From contig NZ_CP139709.1 in the NCBI RefSeq assembly GCF_034377145.1, forward strand, positions 127,539 to 191,538: 64,000 bases of DNA, read 5' to 3'. The notes beneath the pieces were generated by a model. The model did no database searches and had not been told where the DNA came from. It was given only the letters and a program-made list of their open reading frames with translations. Made by a program: the position numbers and the translations under genes. Positions 5,224 through 26,621 of the stretch are shown here, one piece after another. Position 1 is the first letter of the stretch. Every line of letters starts with the position of its first letter. The stretch comes from Sulfitobacter sp. OXR-159. GTDB taxonomy: Bacteria > Pseudomonadota > Alphaproteobacteria > Rhodobacterales > Rhodobacteraceae.

Positions 5224-5816
5224 AACAAAACCTTAGTACTCTGAAAATCGACGCAAAGGGCCAAAGCGCCTGAGAATAACATTAAACAACGACATACTTT
5301 AGAGAGATCACGTCATGGTACAAGAGTTTGGCATCTCAGTTTTTTCAATCTGAACCATCTACCCGCCTCCGGAGGCAAACACCAAAACTTGTAGTTGTCC
5401 CTACACAGAAATCTGACGCTACGCTGCAGAAACATCAGTGGGCCACACACCGCCCTGTTCCAACATTGTTGTCCCAACGCATGCTGATTGCCATTCCCGG
5501 CACCTTTTAGCAAGTGCCCCCAAGCGGATTAACGCCAGTAATGCCGTGTGGGAAAAACGCACGAGTGATACATCTCGGGTTGTATATCCTTTACGTTCCT
5601 ATCAGCGAGGAATGCGCTAGGGCTAGGTAGCGGCAATCAAATGCGGCGGGAATGGGCCCTCTCCCCAAAACAGGGTGATTTCTACCCTTAATTTGCACCC
5701 TACCCTAACCCTGGTATCAAGCGAGGTCGCGCTTGGGTCTCATTAGAAGGTGGCATTGGAAAGTGTTTGGGGGTAGGAGACGCCAACGCAGTTGATAACG
5801 GTTACCCATAGACAGC
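5224..5816. other. long divergent intergenic/leader region
   Basis: 593 bp separate the divergent glycosyl-phosphotransferase and Wzz/BY-kinase genes. Short open frames on both strands show no domain, so no gene is called. It must hold promoters for both directions. A GGTAGCGG stretch near 5626-5633 resembles the core of the ops/JUMPstart element recognised by RfaH-type antiterminators and lies in the correct orientation about 185 bp before the kinase gene. Confidence 0.4.
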
Positions 5817-21625: not shown

Positions 21626-22426
21626 CTATTTAAACCAGGGTGTCCGTCCTTTTGTGGCTCCGCCAAGAAGCACCCCGATGCACAAGGTGATGCAAAGCAG
21701 TACCCATGTGGAGGTCCGCGCAGGGATGAGGCTCGAAAGGGTTGTCAAATAGGGGGGCTTGGGGCTGGAGTGCTGGCGTTCCGGGGCCATCCACAAGGGC
21801 ACGGCACAGACCGCGCGGTTGTCTTCGGCCAGATAGCTTTGGGGCCCGCCATTGTGACAATGTTCCCAAAGGGTGTCGTCGATGTTCGGGTTGCTTTCAA
21901 TGAGGGCCAACCAGGTAGAGGCATCGGCGCGCGGAAGAACATGTGCATATTGCGGGTCGAGATCATGCACTTCTTGTTTCCCGAGGGCGTAGCCAAACAG
22001 GCCCGCCAACCCGCCGAGCATCACGCAGATCAACCCAATATGTAGCGCGGCCCGCGTGAGATTGCGGATGTCAGCCCTTGCGGCTGAGCGCTTAAGGGTC
22101 TCATCTATGAGGGTGTTCATCTGCTGGCTCAGCCCGGCCTGCAGCGCTGCATTGCGTTTATTGATATCAGCGGTGACCTTGCCGGTGATTTTTTTGGCCA
22201 GGGTGGCGGTTACGCCTTCAAGCTGGCGCGGCAGTTTTTCAAGAGCGGCCATAACCTCGGTGCCGCGCCCTTCCATGATCGCATCCTGAGCGGTCAGAAT
22301 TGCCAAAGGATCATCGGGATTATGGCCGGCGTGATAAACCCGGCCGCGGATGTCAGCGCGCTGCGCGTCGGTCAAGCTGTATGCGTTCAAGAAATGATCG
22401 AGCCTATCATGGGGACGGTCAGGCAT
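21626..22426 (-). CDS. mobilisation-module membrane protein, unknown family
   Basis: A 266-aa protein beginning at the ATG at 22426 (MPDRPHDRLDHFLNAYSLTD), which overlaps the upstream ATPase gene by 8 bp. Residues 1-130 are soluble and helical (DAIMEGRGTEVMAALEKLP, then an Asn/Gln-rich coiled-coil region). One transmembrane segment follows (HIGLICVMLGGLAGLFGYAL, about 155-175), then a loop with two Cys, and a second membrane segment near the C-terminus (WVLLCITLCIGVLLGG). This topology resembles small membrane proteins encoded with relaxases on mobilisable plasmids. The coupling to a P-loop ATPase and a TraK-like gene supports a role in transfer, but no specific homologue is recognised. Confidence 0.65.
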   Translation of the reverse strand: MPDRPHDRLDHFLNAYSLTDAQRADIRGRVYHAGHNPDDPLAILTAQDAIMEGRGTEVMAALEKLPRQLEGVTATLAKKITGKVTADINKRNAALQAGLSQQMNTLIDETLKRSAARADIRNLTRAALHIGLICVMLGGLAGLFGYALGKQEVHDLDPQYAHVLPRADASTWLALIESNPNIDDTLWEHCHNGGPQSYLAEDNRAVCAVPLWMAPERQHSSPKPPYLTTLSSLIPARTSTWVLLCITLCIGVLLGGATKGRTPWFK

Positions 22427-23249
22427 TTTGCACCCCCAAGATCGCGCCCACTTCGGGGGTGATTGCGTTTGTGAAGGCGGTCGTGAACTGACGGATACGC
22501 TGGCGGTCGACCAGATCGAGCTTGGGGGTATGGATTGCCTCAGAGAACGGCATGTTGAGATTTTTCGTAAGGGCGAGCGTCCGTTCATTCATATGCGGCA
22601 AGACCATTTCCGCGCCGCCTTGGGCCAAGAGACGGCCGCGGGTCTTGCCGCCGGCTTCATGCCCGTCTTTATGTTTGATCCCATACCAGAAGGGGTAGTC
22701 ATCTTTCTGCAGCAGACCGCGCTGGTTCAGGATCGCAATATGTCCGGCGATGCGACCAAGCTCACCCAGGCCCTCGATCATGTCCAGATGGACAGCGACG
22801 GATTCAACGGTGGCCTTGTCGGGGGTGATGAGATGGCAAAAGACGGGGTAGATATTGAGGTCTGCAAAAACCGCGAAGAGGTTTTCCAGGCCGCCCTGGT
22901 CATCAAAGATACGCTTGAGATCCGCGAGCGCCCCTCCGGCGAGATCATGCAGGTTCGTCCCTTTATGATGCTCAGCGGACTGGATCAGCGTGTCACGACT
23001 TTCTTCGCGCACATTGTAGGCCAAGACGCCCGTCAACGGATCCTGAGACGCGCTCATCATGCCGCCCTCGCGGGTCGCATGCATGGCCGAGAGCGTTCCG
23101 ATGGCGCCGTCGCCGTCATATGCGCCGGTAGGGTGGCCCTGGGTGCGCAGGTGATCAAGAAGCGCGCAAGCAAAGAGGCTTTTGCCGGTGCCTCCTTTCA
23201 AAGAGGTGGTCATCAACAGTGTGGCTGCGGGGGTGGGGAGATTAGGCAT
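22419..23249 (-). CDS. ParA/MinD-like P-loop ATPase of the mobilisation module
   Basis: A 276-aa protein with a deviant Walker A motif near residue 15 (TTSLKGGTGKSLFACAL), an A'-like segment (GAYDGDGAIGTL) in which the usual D-x-D-x-Q is altered, and otherwise an unusual body (HHKGTNLHDLAGGALADL, FADLNIYPVFCHLITPDKA). It belongs to the SIMIBI ATPase class. Members of this class are encoded in mobilisation regions of several plasmids, where they may help position the plasmid or load the transfer complex. It is transcribed away from the relaxase operon, with the TraK-like gene 18 bp upstream and the membrane-protein gene overlapping downstream. It is distinct from the segregation ParA at 11661. 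Confidence 0.75.
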   Translation of the reverse strand: MPNLPTPAATLLMTTSLKGGTGKSLFACALLDHLRTQGHPTGAYDGDGAIGTLSAMHATREGGMMSASQDPLTGVLAYNVREESRDTLIQSAEHHKGTNLHDLAGGALADLKRIFDDQGGLENLFAVFADLNIYPVFCHLITPDKATVESVAVHLDMIEGLGELGRIAGHIAILNQRGLLQKDDYPFWYGIKHKDGHEAGGKTRGRLLAQGGAEMVLPHMNERTLALTKNLNMPFSEAIHTPKLDLVDRQRIRQFTTAFTNAITPEVGAILGVQNA

Positions 23250-23267
23250 GGGGGCGTCTTTCTATGT

Positions 23268-23732
23268 TTAGAGTTCGTTGTCGGGTCTTGGCGTGAACGT
23301 GGAAGAAGAAGGGGAGGGCGGGGTCTTTTTTGCGGGCATGGGCGCGCTTTGGCGCGGGGCAGGGGGGCTGGGGAGATGATCGGCGCGCAGCTCATTGCTG
23401 TTCGGAGGCGCGATCTTGGCCCGTACGATCCCTTTACAGATGCGCAGGATATCCGCGTCGCTGGTCTCCTGAATGCCTTCATCGCGCGCTTGGCGTTCAG
23501 CCGAAACGATCCGCGCGATGTAATTGCGCAGCGTCCCTTCAGCGATATGGAGGTGTTGCTCGCCAAGCCATTTTTTGATCTGGCTGGTGGCATGGCCTTT
23601 GTCGCGCAATTCCAGGATTGTTTTGCGCAGCGCGATAACGCGTTCCAGAAGGGACCGTTCAGGGGATTTTGCGGCCTCTTGGGCCCGCTGTTTCAGGCCG
23701 CAAGCGATTTCGGCGTCGTTGATATGTGTCAT
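23268..23732 (-). CDS. TraK-like DNA-binding accessory protein
   Basis: A 154-aa protein. Residues about 25-75 contain a helix-turn-helix-like pattern (ILELRDKGHATSQIKKWL, then HIAEGTLRNYIARI) that recalls small oriT-binding accessory proteins such as TraK of IncP plasmids. The C-terminal 45 residues are Pro/Ser-rich and probably disordered. It is the first gene of a three-gene minus-strand operon that starts right beside the candidate oriT and is divergent from the MobC-like gene. Binding to oriT repeats to help the relaxase is the natural inference. The family assignment rests on pattern and context, not on strong identity. Confidence 0.6.
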   Translation of the reverse strand: MTHINDAEIACGLKQRAQEAAKSPERSLLERVIALRKTILELRDKGHATSQIKKWLGEQHLHIAEGTLRNYIARIVSAERQARDEGIQETSDADILRICKGIVRAKIAPPNSNELRADHLPSPPAPRQSAPMPAKKTPPSPSSSTFTPRPDNEL

Positions 23733-24045
23733 GGCATTTGCTCGATCTACGTAAAATTCTCCTCACCATAATACGGTGATCGGCTGAAAATTTTGAGCAC
23801 CAGAATGCGCCTGAATGCATTAAGCTGTGGAAAACCCCCTTTGAATTCATAGACCTGAGGGGTGGGGCACTGCTAATGCGCTTGTGATGCGCTTGTGGTG
23901 CGCTGCAAGTGCAGACAGGTGCGCAGAGGGTGCGGCGGGATGGGGCGTAAGTGCTTTGGAAGTGCGATCTTGCTGAATAGGTCTGGCAGCAAGGCTCCTC
24001 GCACCGCGGGGGTAAAACGCAAATTCCGCAGCAGAAAGACCCGCC
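23733..24045. other. candidate oriT region between divergent mobilisation operons
   Basis: A 313-bp gap between the TraK-like gene (minus) and the MobC-like gene (plus), the normal location of oriT in mobilisation modules. It contains tandem 11-bp repeats at 23876-23908 and a second repeat pair with AAGTGC spaced 12 bp apart (around 23949-23967). A nick site cannot be identified by eye. Promoters for both operons should also lie here. Confidence 0.55.
23876..23908. repeat. 11-bp tandem direct repeats in candidate oriT
   Basis: ATGCGCTTGTG occurs at 23876-23886 and again at 23887-23897 with no gap, followed by a degenerate third copy GTGCGCTGCAA (23898-23908). The one-helical-turn period is typical of binding sites for oriT accessory proteins. 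Confidence 0.65.
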
Positions 24046-24447
24046 ATGCCCCGGCCCCAAAAAGACCCCTCAGACCGCCGCCAACGATGGGATGCGCTCT
24101 ATGTCACACCTGCAGAGCGTGCGTCGATCCAATCCAAAGCGAAGAAGGCTGACCTTTCAGTAAGCCGCTACCTTGTCGCGCTTCATGCAAAGAACCAGGT
24201 GAGCAACCGTAGCGACTGGCGTCGCAACATTCAGCTTTTGAACGTTGTCACTGAGCAGCTGGGACTGATCGCAAGATCGATCCCTCAAGAGCCCAGGACT
24301 GCGGAGGCGTGCGACGAACTTGCCGGGCGCCTAGAGATTGCAGCATCACTGCTGGAGATTGAGCGTTTGATCCGAAGCCAGGTCATGCCATGGCAAGGGC
24401 CGCGGCAGCTGGACCCCGTAGATCACGCGAAGGCCGCGCCATGCTGA
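24046..24447 (+). CDS. MobC-like relaxosome accessory protein
   Basis: A 133-aa protein with an N-terminal ribbon-helix-helix region (RWDALYVTPAERASIQSKA, LSVSRYLVALHAKN) and a C-terminal helical part (NVVTEQLGLIARSI, ELAGRLEIAASLLEIERLI). This is the layout of MobC/MbeC-type proteins, which bind oriT and recruit the relaxase. Its last codons overlap the relaxase start by 7 bp, so the two are translationally coupled. Located directly after the repeat-rich oriT candidate. Fairly sure of the type; the exact MobC subfamily is not resolved. Confidence 0.75.
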   Translation: MPRPQKDPSDRRQRWDALYVTPAERASIQSKAKKADLSVSRYLVALHAKNQVSNRSDWRRNIQLLNVVTEQLGLIARSIPQEPRTAEACDELAGRLEIAASLLEIERLIRSQVMPWQGPRQLDPVDHAKAAPC

Positions 24448-26621
24448 TTGCCTGGTCCTCTCACAGCGGCACCGCAGGTAAGGCCGATGGGCCGCGTGCC
24501 TTGAGCAATTATATGGATGCCGAAACGGTTATCAAACGCCTTTCCGATGGGCGGCGCGCACCTGTGCGGCGCCGCCCTGCGCCGGAAATCTTGTTTGGAG
24601 ATGCGACCCAATTGCGCATGGCGATCGGGTCTAGCGGCTGTGTCCACCGCTACGCCTCATGTGTCATGAGCTTTGCGGCCAGTGACATTGATGTGGATGC
24701 CTTCAATGCGGGGAACACTGACGCGCGTTTTAAGGCCGACCTCGCTCTGAAACTTTTGTTGGAGATGGCGCTTGCCGGCATCCCGCGCCAAGCACGTCCG
24801 CCGGTCTATGCGACCACCCATACGCATACAGGCGCTTTGGAAATCAATGTTGCGATCCCGCGCTGGATCATGGGGCCTGATGGCAAGCAGCGGGGCTTCA
24901 ATCCGGCCCCTCCCGAGAAAACCCATGCGAGTTGGGATGCGGTCCGTGACCTTCTGAACCACCGGTTCGATTGGGCGGAGCCAGAATGCCCTGACCGGCG
25001 CAGAGAGCTGGTCTTGCCCAATTGGATGCTGAAAGTTGCCGCCGAAACGCGTCGTGCGGGAGGGCCGCTTAAAGAAGGCCTTCGTGAACAGATCACGCAA
25101 GAGGTGTTTGAGCAAACATCGGCGGGCGTCATCACCGATCGTTCAAGCCTGCTGAATTGGCTTCAAGCGCGCCTAGAGGATACGGGTCTGATCCTGCATG
25201 GGGCAACCTCTACGTCGGTTACCATTGGGCCTGCGGATGCGGCGCCATCGGCACGCTTCAAGTTGAAGGGCGTCGTTTTTGAAGAGAGCTTCGGGCAAGG
25301 CGCGCCGACGCCTGGACAAGAGGCTATCGAGATCGCGCGCGCGGCACGGCAGCGCAGGCTTCGCACTGCGCCAGACCGGGTTCAGAGGCTTTGGAACCGG
25401 CGCGCTGCCTTTAATCGGAGCCGCTATGGGGTGAACAGATGGCCCGTCAAAACCTTTGCGGCGAGCCACTATGAGATCGTGAAGCCCGGGGATGAGCCCC
25501 TCATGATTCCAATGAAACACCATTTGAATAGCCTCACGGGAGACAGCCGCCATGACTTCGAGATTGACACCGATGGAACGCGCTTTGCTCGATATGGTGG
25601 AGCAGATGAACTTGACGGCATTGGCGCGCGACAAAGCGTTGGACGCGAAGATCGACGCTTTGACGCTGCAGCTTCAACAGCAAGAAGAGTCTGTGACGAC
25701 TTTAAACAGCTTGTTGAGACCCTTCCTGCCAAAGGGCTGATCGCGGCGATAAGTACCCGGGTCTCGCAGTTGGTGAGGATCATTCGGTCCCGCATGCTGC
25801 TGAAGCGTATTTCTGCGGCAATTCCCGACAGTCTTTTAAGAACCCTCGCACATACACAGGAAGCCTTGGAGGTTTACAATGGAACATCACCCCACGCCCT
25901 TAGACCCAATGAAGCAAATAGAATTGCAGCTGAGAGAGTTGGCGGGGCTGATCTATCCGCTGCACGCGCTTTTGGAGGGCAGCTACGACGAAACCACGGA
26001 CCGTCTGAAGAGCGTGGTCGACGCGCTGGATCAAATCGCCAATGCGTTGGAGCGCACGGTAAACATGATGAACGCGGAGCGGCGCGAGGTTCCGCTGGCA
26101 TTGGAACGCAGATTGGAGATCCTCAGCCAACAGCAGGTTCTGCAGATGCAGTTGTTGAGCGATCTGCACGCATGGTGGGGCGGCCCGCAGCCCCAAACAG
26201 CCGAGCAGGGCTCCTGAACTATCTCAGGACGGAAGTTCAAAAAAGAGAGTGCAGCGCCGAAGTGAGGCTACAGTTCTTTGAGGGCTCTTATTGCTGGCCC
26301 CCCAGGCTGGAGCTTTGCATTGCGAAGGTGGGCAATAGACCCACCCCATCAGCGACGGGGCGGCGCCCCACGTGCAGGCTGCTTTGCGTCCCTTCCTTGG
26401 TGCCGCAGATTGTGCCTGTTCTAAAGCAGGCCCTGGAAGGGGGATGGGTGAGGGGGGTCGATTTTGACGCCGAGGCGCTGAATGATATGCCTGAGGAAAT
26501 GCTGCCTTTGCTGCGTTCATTAGAGATGTCTGGACCGCAGCCCACCAGTTCCGACCTTGCAGATAACACTGAAGGCGAAGGGGACTTTGCCTCTGCGATT
26601 GACGGCGGGCCAACTGGCTGA
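24441..26621 (+). CDS. relaxase/mobilisation nuclease with two overprinted genes
   Basis: A 726-aa frame. The ATG at 24441 overlaps the MobC-like stop; a longer frame from 24390 is less likely. The N-terminal nuclease has a candidate catalytic tyrosine near residue 24 (RALSNYMDAETV) and the metal-binding His motif THTHTGALEIN (about 126-136), as in HUH relaxases that nick oriT. Conserved-looking sequence runs to about residue 365. At about 370-433 and 479-592 this frame has shadow-like composition because two other genes use the +1 frame there. It is coding-like again between them (QLVRIIRSRMLLKRISAAIP) and in the last 130 residues (VPQIVPVLKQALEGGW). The frame stays open throughout, so one long relaxase with internal overlaps is favoured over separate fragments. 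Confidence 0.75.
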   Translation: MLIAWSSHSGTAGKADGPRALSNYMDAETVIKRLSDGRRAPVRRRPAPEILFGDATQLRMAIGSSGCVHRYASCVMSFAASDIDVDAFNAGNTDARFKADLALKLLLEMALAGIPRQARPPVYATTHTHTGALEINVAIPRWIMGPDGKQRGFNPAPPEKTHASWDAVRDLLNHRFDWAEPECPDRRRELVLPNWMLKVAAETRRAGGPLKEGLREQITQEVFEQTSAGVITDRSSLLNWLQARLEDTGLILHGATSTSVTIGPADAAPSARFKLKGVVFEESFGQGAPTPGQEAIEIARAARQRRLRTAPDRVQRLWNRRAAFNRSRYGVNRWPVKTFAASHYEIVKPGDEPLMIPMKHHLNSLTGDSRHDFEIDTDGTRFARYGGADELDGIGARQSVGREDRRFDAAASTARRVCDDFKQLVETLPAKGLIAAISTRVSQLVRIIRSRMLLKRISAAIPDSLLRTLAHTQEALEVYNGTSPHALRPNEANRIAAERVGGADLSAARAFGGQLRRNHGPSEERGRRAGSNRQCVGAHGKHDERGAARGSAGIGTQIGDPQPTAGSADAVVERSARMVGRPAAPNSRAGLLNYLRTEVQKRECSAEVRLQFFEGSYCWPPRLELCIAKVGNRPTPSATGRRPTCRLLCVPSLVPQIVPVLKQALEGGWVRGVDFDAEALNDMPEEMLPLLRSLEMSGPQPTSSDLADNTEGEGDFASAIDGGPTG
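25552..25740 (+). CDS. small nested mobilisation gene (MbeB-like position), inside relaxase gene
   Basis: A 62-aa product encoded wholly within the relaxase gene in the +1 frame. The start has GGGAGA about eight bases upstream (MTSRLTPMERALLDMVEQM). The codons end mostly in G or C, which is the genome's bias and is absent from the relaxase frame over this stretch. The protein is a helical, coiled-coil-like sequence (KIDALTLQLQQQEESVTTL) with no other domain. In ColE1-type plasmids mbeB and mbeD are likewise overlapped by the mbeA relaxase gene in a different frame. Sequence homology to those is not claimed; the similarity is in architecture. Confidence 0.65.
   Translation: MTSRLTPMERALLDMVEQMNLTALARDKALDAKIDALTLQLQQQEESVTTLNSLLRPFLPKG
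25879..26217 (+). CDS. second nested mobilisation gene (MbeD-like position), inside relaxase gene
   Basis: A 112-aa product in the +1 frame relative to the relaxase, with a strong ribosome site (GGAGG six bases before the ATG). Third positions are almost uniformly G/C across the frame. The protein is helical and charged (PMKQIELQLRELAGLIYPL, DRLKSVVDALDQIANALE, LEILSQQQVLQMQLLSDL), looks like an extended coiled coil, and ends in a short Pro/Gln-rich tail. The corresponding stretch of the relaxase frame is Gly/Arg-rich shadow sequence. It probably forms part of the relaxosome or its membrane link, but I do not recognise a family. Confidence 0.7.
   Translation: MEHHPTPLDPMKQIELQLRELAGLIYPLHALLEGSYDETTDRLKSVVDALDQIANALERTVNMMNAERREVPLALERRLEILSQQQVLQMQLLSDLHAWWGGPQPQTAEQGS

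Follow-up and report, generated by a model that had tools for sequence, protein, structure and literature searches.

Two small genes, ORF1 and ORF2, are nested in the +1 frame of a 726-codon HEN-type relaxase gene of Sulfitobacter sp. OXR-159, and the substitution patterns make it very likely that both frames of the overlaps are kept by selection, that is, that this DNA is dual coding for the relaxase, ORF1 and ORF2. The contig that carries the locus is 191,538 bases long and belongs to a 4.4-Mb genome; all positions given here are those of the analyzed stretch of 64,000 nucleotides of that contig (the window).

Organization of the mobilization module

The relaxase gene (24441..26621, + strand) was identified from the ORF call, a match to the MbeA model and the invariant motif residues, and it contains both nested genes. 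Upstream of it on the same strand lies the gene of a NikA-like/MobC relaxosome protein (24046..24447; PF21983, 3.2e-8), the 3′ end of which overlaps the relaxase start (ATGCTGA). Upstream of mobC, a 30-bp block (23988..24017, no strand assigned) that is identical in the window and the loci L003 and L043 is a candidate oriT; an inverted-repeat scan of this region revealed none in the window.

The original prediction had placed two +1 frames of 62 and 112 codons, each with its own ribosome site, inside the relaxase gene, and both were found where it put them. ORF1 (25552..25740, + strand, 62 aa), which is probably MbeD-like, is preceded by the ribosome-site-like GGGAGA (25538..25543, + strand), and ORF2 (25879..26217, + strand, 112 aa), a member of an uncharacterised alpha-helical family, by a GGAGG (25868-25872) located 6 bases before its ATG; both genes are supported by the ORF list, conservation and profiles. 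The stretch between them (25741..25878, + strand) and the C-terminal segment past them (26218..26621, + strand) encode the relaxase only, as judged from the substitutions relative to L043 and the third-position GC. The product of the former consists of helices in the low-confidence part of the relaxase structure model, and the latter is 36% identical to L043 and 8-21% identical to ten more distant alignment rows. The closest record found was L003, a Sulfitobacter faviae plasmid with 95% identity across the whole relaxase, and the relaxase core of L043 (Sulfitobacter sp. F26169L) is 61% identical to that of the window.

The relaxase family

Alignment of 19 relaxases revealed that Y24, S77-F78, H127, E134 and N136 are invariant, and that motif III reads H-x6-E-x-N, the HEN form, with spacing equal to that of ColE1. 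This form of motif III is given for ColE1 MbeA in the available portion of PMC12857230, and the motifs Y19, SF and HQD-x4-ELNF in the accessible text of PMC9282650 were the basis for naming Y24 and S77-F78 as motifs. Y24 would thus be the single N-terminal catalytic Tyr and S77-F78 motif II, as in MOB-P5/HEN relaxases. The NCBIfam MbeA model NF047848 matched residues 43-328 (1.9e-12, 47.1 bits, far under its cut-off of 500), and no Pfam family matched the relaxase at E≤1; PF03432 picks up two other relaxases in the genome, not the 726-codon one. The structure model of the relaxase matched TrwC (2cdm) with an E value of 2.5e-4 and a target-normalised TM of 0.39, and it had a weak match to R1162 MobA (2ns6; 3.4e-2, TM 0.48). 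Its block means of confidence were 59-89 in the catalytic domain and 25-39 at residues 481-580, which cover most of the ORF2 overlap, and the C-terminal half as a whole was of low confidence.

Composition and openness of the two frames

The small frames had been predicted to possess G/C-rich third positions, and the relaxase frame to be shadow-like inside the overlaps and coding-like between and after them, which agrees with the base composition. GC at relaxase codon position 3 was 0.64 in the core, 0.38 in ORF1, 0.63 between the nested genes, 0.36 in ORF2 and 0.63 after them, with a position-3 excess of substitutions returning in the two relaxase-only stretches, and GC at nested-frame position 3 was 0.70 in ORF1 and 0.76 in ORF2; third-position GC therefore changes frame at the borders of the nested ORFs.

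The length of the nested ORFs is no proof of coding, since synonymous-codon shuffles of the relaxase often give equal +1 runs: among 5000 shuffles, the longest run matched or exceeded the actual 125 codons in 64%, and 1898 left the two nested intervals open together. Runs as long as these being so common, the small frames might be chance openings in a GC-rich relaxase gene that alone is coding. The shift in substitution position and the reversal of dN/dS described below, together with start regions conserved in several lineages, argue against such an origin, which we consider scarcely credible.

The shadow-like composition and the low model confidence in the overlaps could also mean that the small genes alone are coding there, with the relaxase ending earlier and its C-terminal segment being a separate or dying frame, and the public gene table of L003 indeed has two small ORFs and no relaxase. 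However, the relaxase frame was open in all 28 overlaps examined (close kin included), against a low chance: with synonymous codons of the nested gene drawn at random, the probability of an open relaxase frame was 0.0158 for ORF1 and 0.0005 for ORF2 of the window, and at most 0.23 for the other overlaps (some ORF1s). Moreover, the coding signal comes back in the same frame between and after the nested genes, and LPD7 (L045, L047) as well as DUF3991 and Toprim (L047) are found further on in the same open frame. The original prediction had named homologous relaxases that end near position 25540 as the observation that would tell against it; 20 homologs were measured at 587-889 codons, and none ends there. 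An early end of the relaxase is thus improbable, and a relaxase translated through the overlaps is the reading that we follow.

Selection on both frames

Substitutions were counted pairwise at relaxase codon positions 1/2/3, region by region, in ten pairs. Between the window and L043, the changes amounted to 106/96/219 before the small genes, 27/18/14 inside ORF1, 24/14/30 between the nested genes, 49/37/35 inside ORF2 and 67/51/87 after them (overlap versus before, p=6.7e-8; versus after, p=0.0055). The counts were 130/92/188 before, 28/14/9 in ORF1, 9/6/10 between, 40/22/13 in ORF2 and 21/16/35 after for the Paracoccus pair L005-L052; 12/6/32 before, 7/0/0 in ORF2 and 3/6/12 after for the Martelella pair L049-L051; and 88/81/219, 39/22/13 and 31/19/44 in the same three regions for L007-L053. 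Nine of the ten pairs were tested for the shift, the window-L003 pair being left out with 6 changes in its overlaps, and the ratio of position 3 to position 1 was lower inside the overlap in all nine. The p-value was below 0.05 in eight of the nine for overlap versus "before" and in five for overlap versus "after", L004-L008 being not significant (p=0.21 and 0.33) and L047-L048 borderline (p=0.027 and 0.052); these values are not independent, because many rows are close kin.

Rates in both frames of the overlap had been proposed as a check on the nested genes, and Nei-Gojobori estimates for six pairs gave dN > dS for the relaxase frame inside the overlap and dN < dS outside it, together with dN < dS for the nested frame (window-L043 dN/dS, 0.24/1.57 for ORF1 and 0.33/1.28 for ORF2). 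Identity to L043 was 40/62 for nested ORF1 versus 27/63 for the relaxase frame there, and 58/106 for nested ORF2 versus 44/111. As a positive control, the MbeB/MbeD-type pair L010-L031 from the same bacterial family gave 21/22/97 before, 47/27/37 in MbeB and 42/20/19 in MbeD. The ColE1 control L084-L086 (before 49/32/122, mbeB 83/62/83, mbeD 22/14/21) was weaker: the position-3 excess was lost in mbeB and mbeD, but without a position-1 excess.

The ribosome site of ORF2 inside relaxase codons

Sequence and alignment place the GGAGG of ORF2 in the relaxase codons L476-E477 (TTG GAG; 25866..25872, + strand), which belong to the few near-invariant residues of the relaxase C-terminal half among 15 aligned relaxases. 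Across 22 ORF2 loci (close kin included), the Glu over the site is encoded by GAG in 19 of the 19 in which it is present; L043 and L091 have AAG at that codon, and L044 is without the L-E pair. Since the site Glu is always GAG while the Glu codons of the relaxase cores are mixed (GAG 172, GAA 119), a constraint on the nucleotides of the ribosome site, not on the residues alone, is suggested.

Identity of ORF1 and ORF2

ORF1 is nested in the +1 frame of a HEN relaxase, as MbeD/MobD is. Its alignment with MbeD by hhalign reached 73% over 26 columns at the start region, the MbeD profile scored 14.4 bits on ORF1 versus 9.2 for the best shuffled sequence, and the ORF1 profile scored 16-22 bits on three enterobacterial MbeD proteins. 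Neither ORF1 nor ORF2 matched a mobilization family in Pfam or NCBIfam, and the Pfam matches of ORF1 include no MbeD model. A match of ORF1 to DUF7310 (0.0014) fell under the cut-off of that model and was discarded, as were coiled-coil Pfam identities of the two small families, which are scattered among the matches listed (25 of 63; 25 of 66) and were judged compositional. From these profile comparisons, ORF1 is probably an MbeD-type protein that has diverged strongly, and the case for an MbeD-like role is evenly balanced. Public annotation names MbeD a mobilization/exclusion protein, and MbeD reportedly corresponds to the exclusion gene described by Yamada et al. (1995).

ORF2 was not among the matches of a four-sequence MbeB profile down to E=10, and hhalign gave it 0.2% with MbeD, so that these comparisons show no kinship. 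A profile search of a large protein set returned 30 ORF2 relatives (one being the window's own), one of them with a Pfam label, and the structure model consists of a 24-residue helix followed by a 65-residue helix (mean pLDDT 74, pTM 0.41). We conclude that ORF2 is a coiled-coil-like protein separate from MbeB and MbeD that belongs to its own clade of HEN relaxases, in which no MbeB was detected. By analogy, it could act as a relaxosome helper, to which we give slightly less than even credence.

Distribution of ORF2

An order-wide search of 390 genomes gave ORF2 matches in 16 of them, at 17 places. The ten places at E≤2e-11 all lie +1 to a relaxase; nine, the window among them, are inside an open HEN frame, and the tenth (L104) is beside a broken relaxase with the HEN part in another frame. 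At L097 (3.0e-6), the ORF2-like ORF is +1 to a frame of 608 codons with a weak match to PF03432 (0.0014, below the cut-off) and no similarity to the window's relaxase core, a lead that ORF2-like genes may also occur in other, non-HEN relaxases; at L098 (5.6e-6), it lies +1 in an open 251-codon frame without the HEN motif. Five places with E above 1e-4 (L099-L103) are in long frames that look unrelated. A class-wide search of 385 sampled genomes (E≤1e-5) found ORF2 in the window's own genome only, and, taking this result together with the Martelella loci, the family seems to be uncommon in these samples beyond the Rhodobacterales.

Small genes in 82 relaxases

The proposed search of the proteins against plasmids turned out differently for its two parts: tblastn of each small protein yielded L003 only, and relatives were therefore collected via the relaxase, which led to many relatives with small genes. 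The 82 relaxases surveyed exclude other relaxases and later loci (L001, L002, L088-L090, L093, L097-L103, L105) as well as near-identical or duplicate ones (L013, L054-L057, L075, L076, L080, L081). Over them, four small-gene profiles (seeds: 11 ORF1, 18 ORF2, 4 MbeD, 4 MbeB) were run against 699 ORFs read in the +1 or +2 frame, of which 128 scored at least 20 bits, the best shuffled sequence reaching 13.2 bits. All 128 lie in the +1 frame, a rule that is informative for the non-seed matches, because the seeds were themselves all picked from +1 frames.

At least one +1 match at E<0.01 was present in 76 of the 82 relaxases. No small-gene match was found in L020, L021, L022, L074 and L104, and the single match of L019 is in the +2 frame and just under 20 bits. 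Loss of the small frames in homologs, the other observation named in advance as adverse, is consequently seen in part: they are kept in these 76 loci, but L009, a HEN-like relaxase outside the 82, was scanned and has no small gene. The combinations encountered were MbeB with MbeD, an MbeD-type gene alone, ORF1 with ORF2, and ORF2 alone.

A tree of 48 relaxases is divided into two sides, each supported 100/99. One side (22 rows, ColE1 included) has MbeB- and MbeD-type nested genes, and the other (26 rows, the window included) has ORF2 with or without ORF1, row L020 being without a small gene. The MbeB/MbeD group was subsampled and the root is a midpoint root, so that this tree does not show in what sequence genes were gained and lost.

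Relaxase linkers as possible places of gene exchange

In the window's clade, the nested genes occupy linker regions in which the relaxase is only weakly conserved. This placement is not general, because in the two loci checked in the MbeB/MbeD group (L059 and L010) the MbeB-like gene overlaps the end of the conserved core, starting about 55 codons before the core-aligned stretch ends. The order in L045 is catalytic domain, +1 MbeB-like ORF (22 bits), LPD7 in the relaxase frame and +1 ORF1-like gene, and L047 has the catalytic domain, LPD7, the +1 ORF1-like gene and then DUF3991 and Toprim. The distance from core residue 321 to the ORF2 start is 147-174 codons in the 11 loci with ORF1 and 87-99 codons in 8 of the 11 loci without it, which fits a small gene and its linker being gained or lost together; the three remaining loci without ORF1, all from Martelella, are the exception at 142-144 codons.

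We tentatively propose, with somewhat less than even confidence, that HEN relaxases have permanent places for exchangeable +1 genes in their C-terminal linkers. Each gene would move with the relaxase stretch that it overlaps, in a single piece of DNA, and accessory content would vary in step with relaxase length. ORF2 would then mark a clade whose MbeB gave way to an unrelated protein, and ORF2 or something similar may be present in the non-HEN L097.

Discussion

The original prediction likened the two genes to mbeB and mbeD, which are also in the +1 frame of mbeA, and held that the same layout here would be convergent or very divergent. The module resembles ColE1 mbeA/mbeB/mbeD (MOB-P5/HEN) in its HEN relaxase, the MobC gene just upstream and the two +1 small genes. 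It differs in order: ColE1 has MbeB then MbeD, near back to back, whereas the window has an MbeD-like gene, a relaxase-only stretch and ORF2, and the relaxase continues for about 134 codons after ORF2, compared with about 35 after mbeD in ColE1. The overlap of mbeA with mbeB and mbeD in some ColE1 plasmids is described in the accessible part of PMC6118388, and MobB and MobD are termed "internally encoded" in that of PMC9282650.

Among alphaproteobacteria, Paracoccus pMARC2 and pAES4 likewise carry a MOBP5(HEN) relaxase, and their mobA, mobB and mobC genes overlap; the products of these genes are similar to the Mob proteins of Aeromonas pAsal2, and the available portion of that report mentions no ORF2-like protein or second nested gene (PMC3832669). 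In RSF1010/R1162, mobB is likewise a small mobilization gene in another frame inside the relaxase gene mobA/repB (PMC2200642, PMC4655240, accessible text); unlike in the window, the relaxase is of the MOBQ type, and its MobB is described with a C-terminal membrane domain. ORF2, the +1 rule and the linker placement are not described in the portions accessible of the literature searched, including PMC8683028, PMC9025767, PMC5613091 and PMC5864857, with subscription papers mostly outside this search.

The RSF1010 case, a nested gene in a different relaxase family (PMC2200642, available part), lends some weight to convergence, in which ORF1 and ORF2 arose independently of mbeB and mbeD because the C-terminal halves of relaxases favour +1 births. 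The lack of kinship of ORF2 to MbeB or MbeD and the weak ORF2-like ORF in the +1 frame of the non-HEN relaxase L097 point the same way. However, ORF1 shares its start region with MbeD within the same relaxase family, and the +1 relation is identical in all 128 ORFs, and we rate an entirely convergent origin as unlikely, albeit worth considering. Between the two predicted alternatives, divergence is favoured for the relaxase, by its MbeA model match and HEN motif, and for ORF1, by its weak MbeD match above shuffled sequences, but not for ORF2; the latter, which matches neither MbeB nor MbeD in the comparisons made, may have arisen independently. From these comparisons, descent with divergence from a ColE1-like ancestor, during which small genes were exchanged, is preferred to convergence alone.

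The locus is best read as a ColE1-type (MOB-HEN) mobilization module with one DNA stretch that would specify three proteins. The relaxase would be translated through its whole frame to give a catalytic domain (1-335) and a C-terminal half, composed of a helical middle part and a final part with loose linkers as connections, and the +1 frame of the linkers would encode the two small helical proteins, each initiated at an internal ribosome site of its own. A single transcript from upstream of mobC may serve all of them, the small proteins being made along with the relaxase. By analogy with MbeB/MbeD and RSF1010 MobB, the small proteins may help the relaxase at the relaxosome or the coupling protein, and each small gene may have been gained or lost together with its linker, in a single DNA segment.

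The gene tables of L003-L008 list the relaxase in three cases and small ORFs without the relaxase in three, never both; the table itself has known gaps. Of the five plasmids from Sulfitobacter (L003, L004, L006, L007 and L008), four are typed non-mobilizable, and a 2026 survey of 153 Sulfitobacter plasmids recognizes mobilizable ones by their mobQ relaxases, according to its accessible text (PMC13386836). Because the gene tables omit genes, four of five plasmids are typed non-mobilizable and the survey counts mobQ, plasmid mobility in the Sulfitobacter group may be underestimated.

To our knowledge, few fully nested bacterial gene pairs have measurable selection on both frames. With many diverged copies and several combinations of small genes, this family makes the birth, upkeep and loss of dual coding testable.

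Region upstream of mobC

A 30-bp block located at 23988-24017 of the window, upstream of mobC (24046-24447), was found to be identical in the window, in its closest record, a Sulfitobacter faviae plasmid (L003), and in Sulfitobacter sp. F26169L (L043), while the sequence flanking it differs among the three. The block occurs in one copy in the window's genome, and a search for an inverted repeat around it in the window found none. The block at 23988-24017 is nonetheless a candidate oriT or nic region. Further upstream, three divergent genes on the minus strand (21626-23732), encoding an HTH-like protein, a ParA-like ATPase and a possible membrane protein, are present in both L003 and L043, with identities of 42-62% in the latter. 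This layout may resemble that of traK-traL-traM across the oriT of RP4.

Nested genes and relaxases in other loci

ORF2 lies at 5439-5777 in L003; the public annotation places its start at 5484, which is 15 codons downstream of the ATG with the conserved ribosome site. In L104 (G563:C34), a second module copy within one genome, ORF2 is open and the relaxase frame is broken.

The HEN relaxases of L045 and L047 both carry an LPD7 domain, that of L047 also DUF3991 and Toprim (primase-like) domains, and an ORF1-like gene is nested between or after these extra domains. A weak ORF2-like ORF was observed in the +1 frame of a 608-codon frame of L097 (1001-2824, minus strand), which matches the relaxase model PF03432 weakly (0.0014) and showed no resemblance to the core of the window's relaxase. 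Two further PF03432 relaxases are found in the window's own genome (contig C5, 76594-76893 and 17560-17964). The Paracoccus aminovorans plasmid (L009) carries a HEN-like relaxase frame of similar length, within which no small-gene match was detectable, and is a natural comparison for how the overlap originated.
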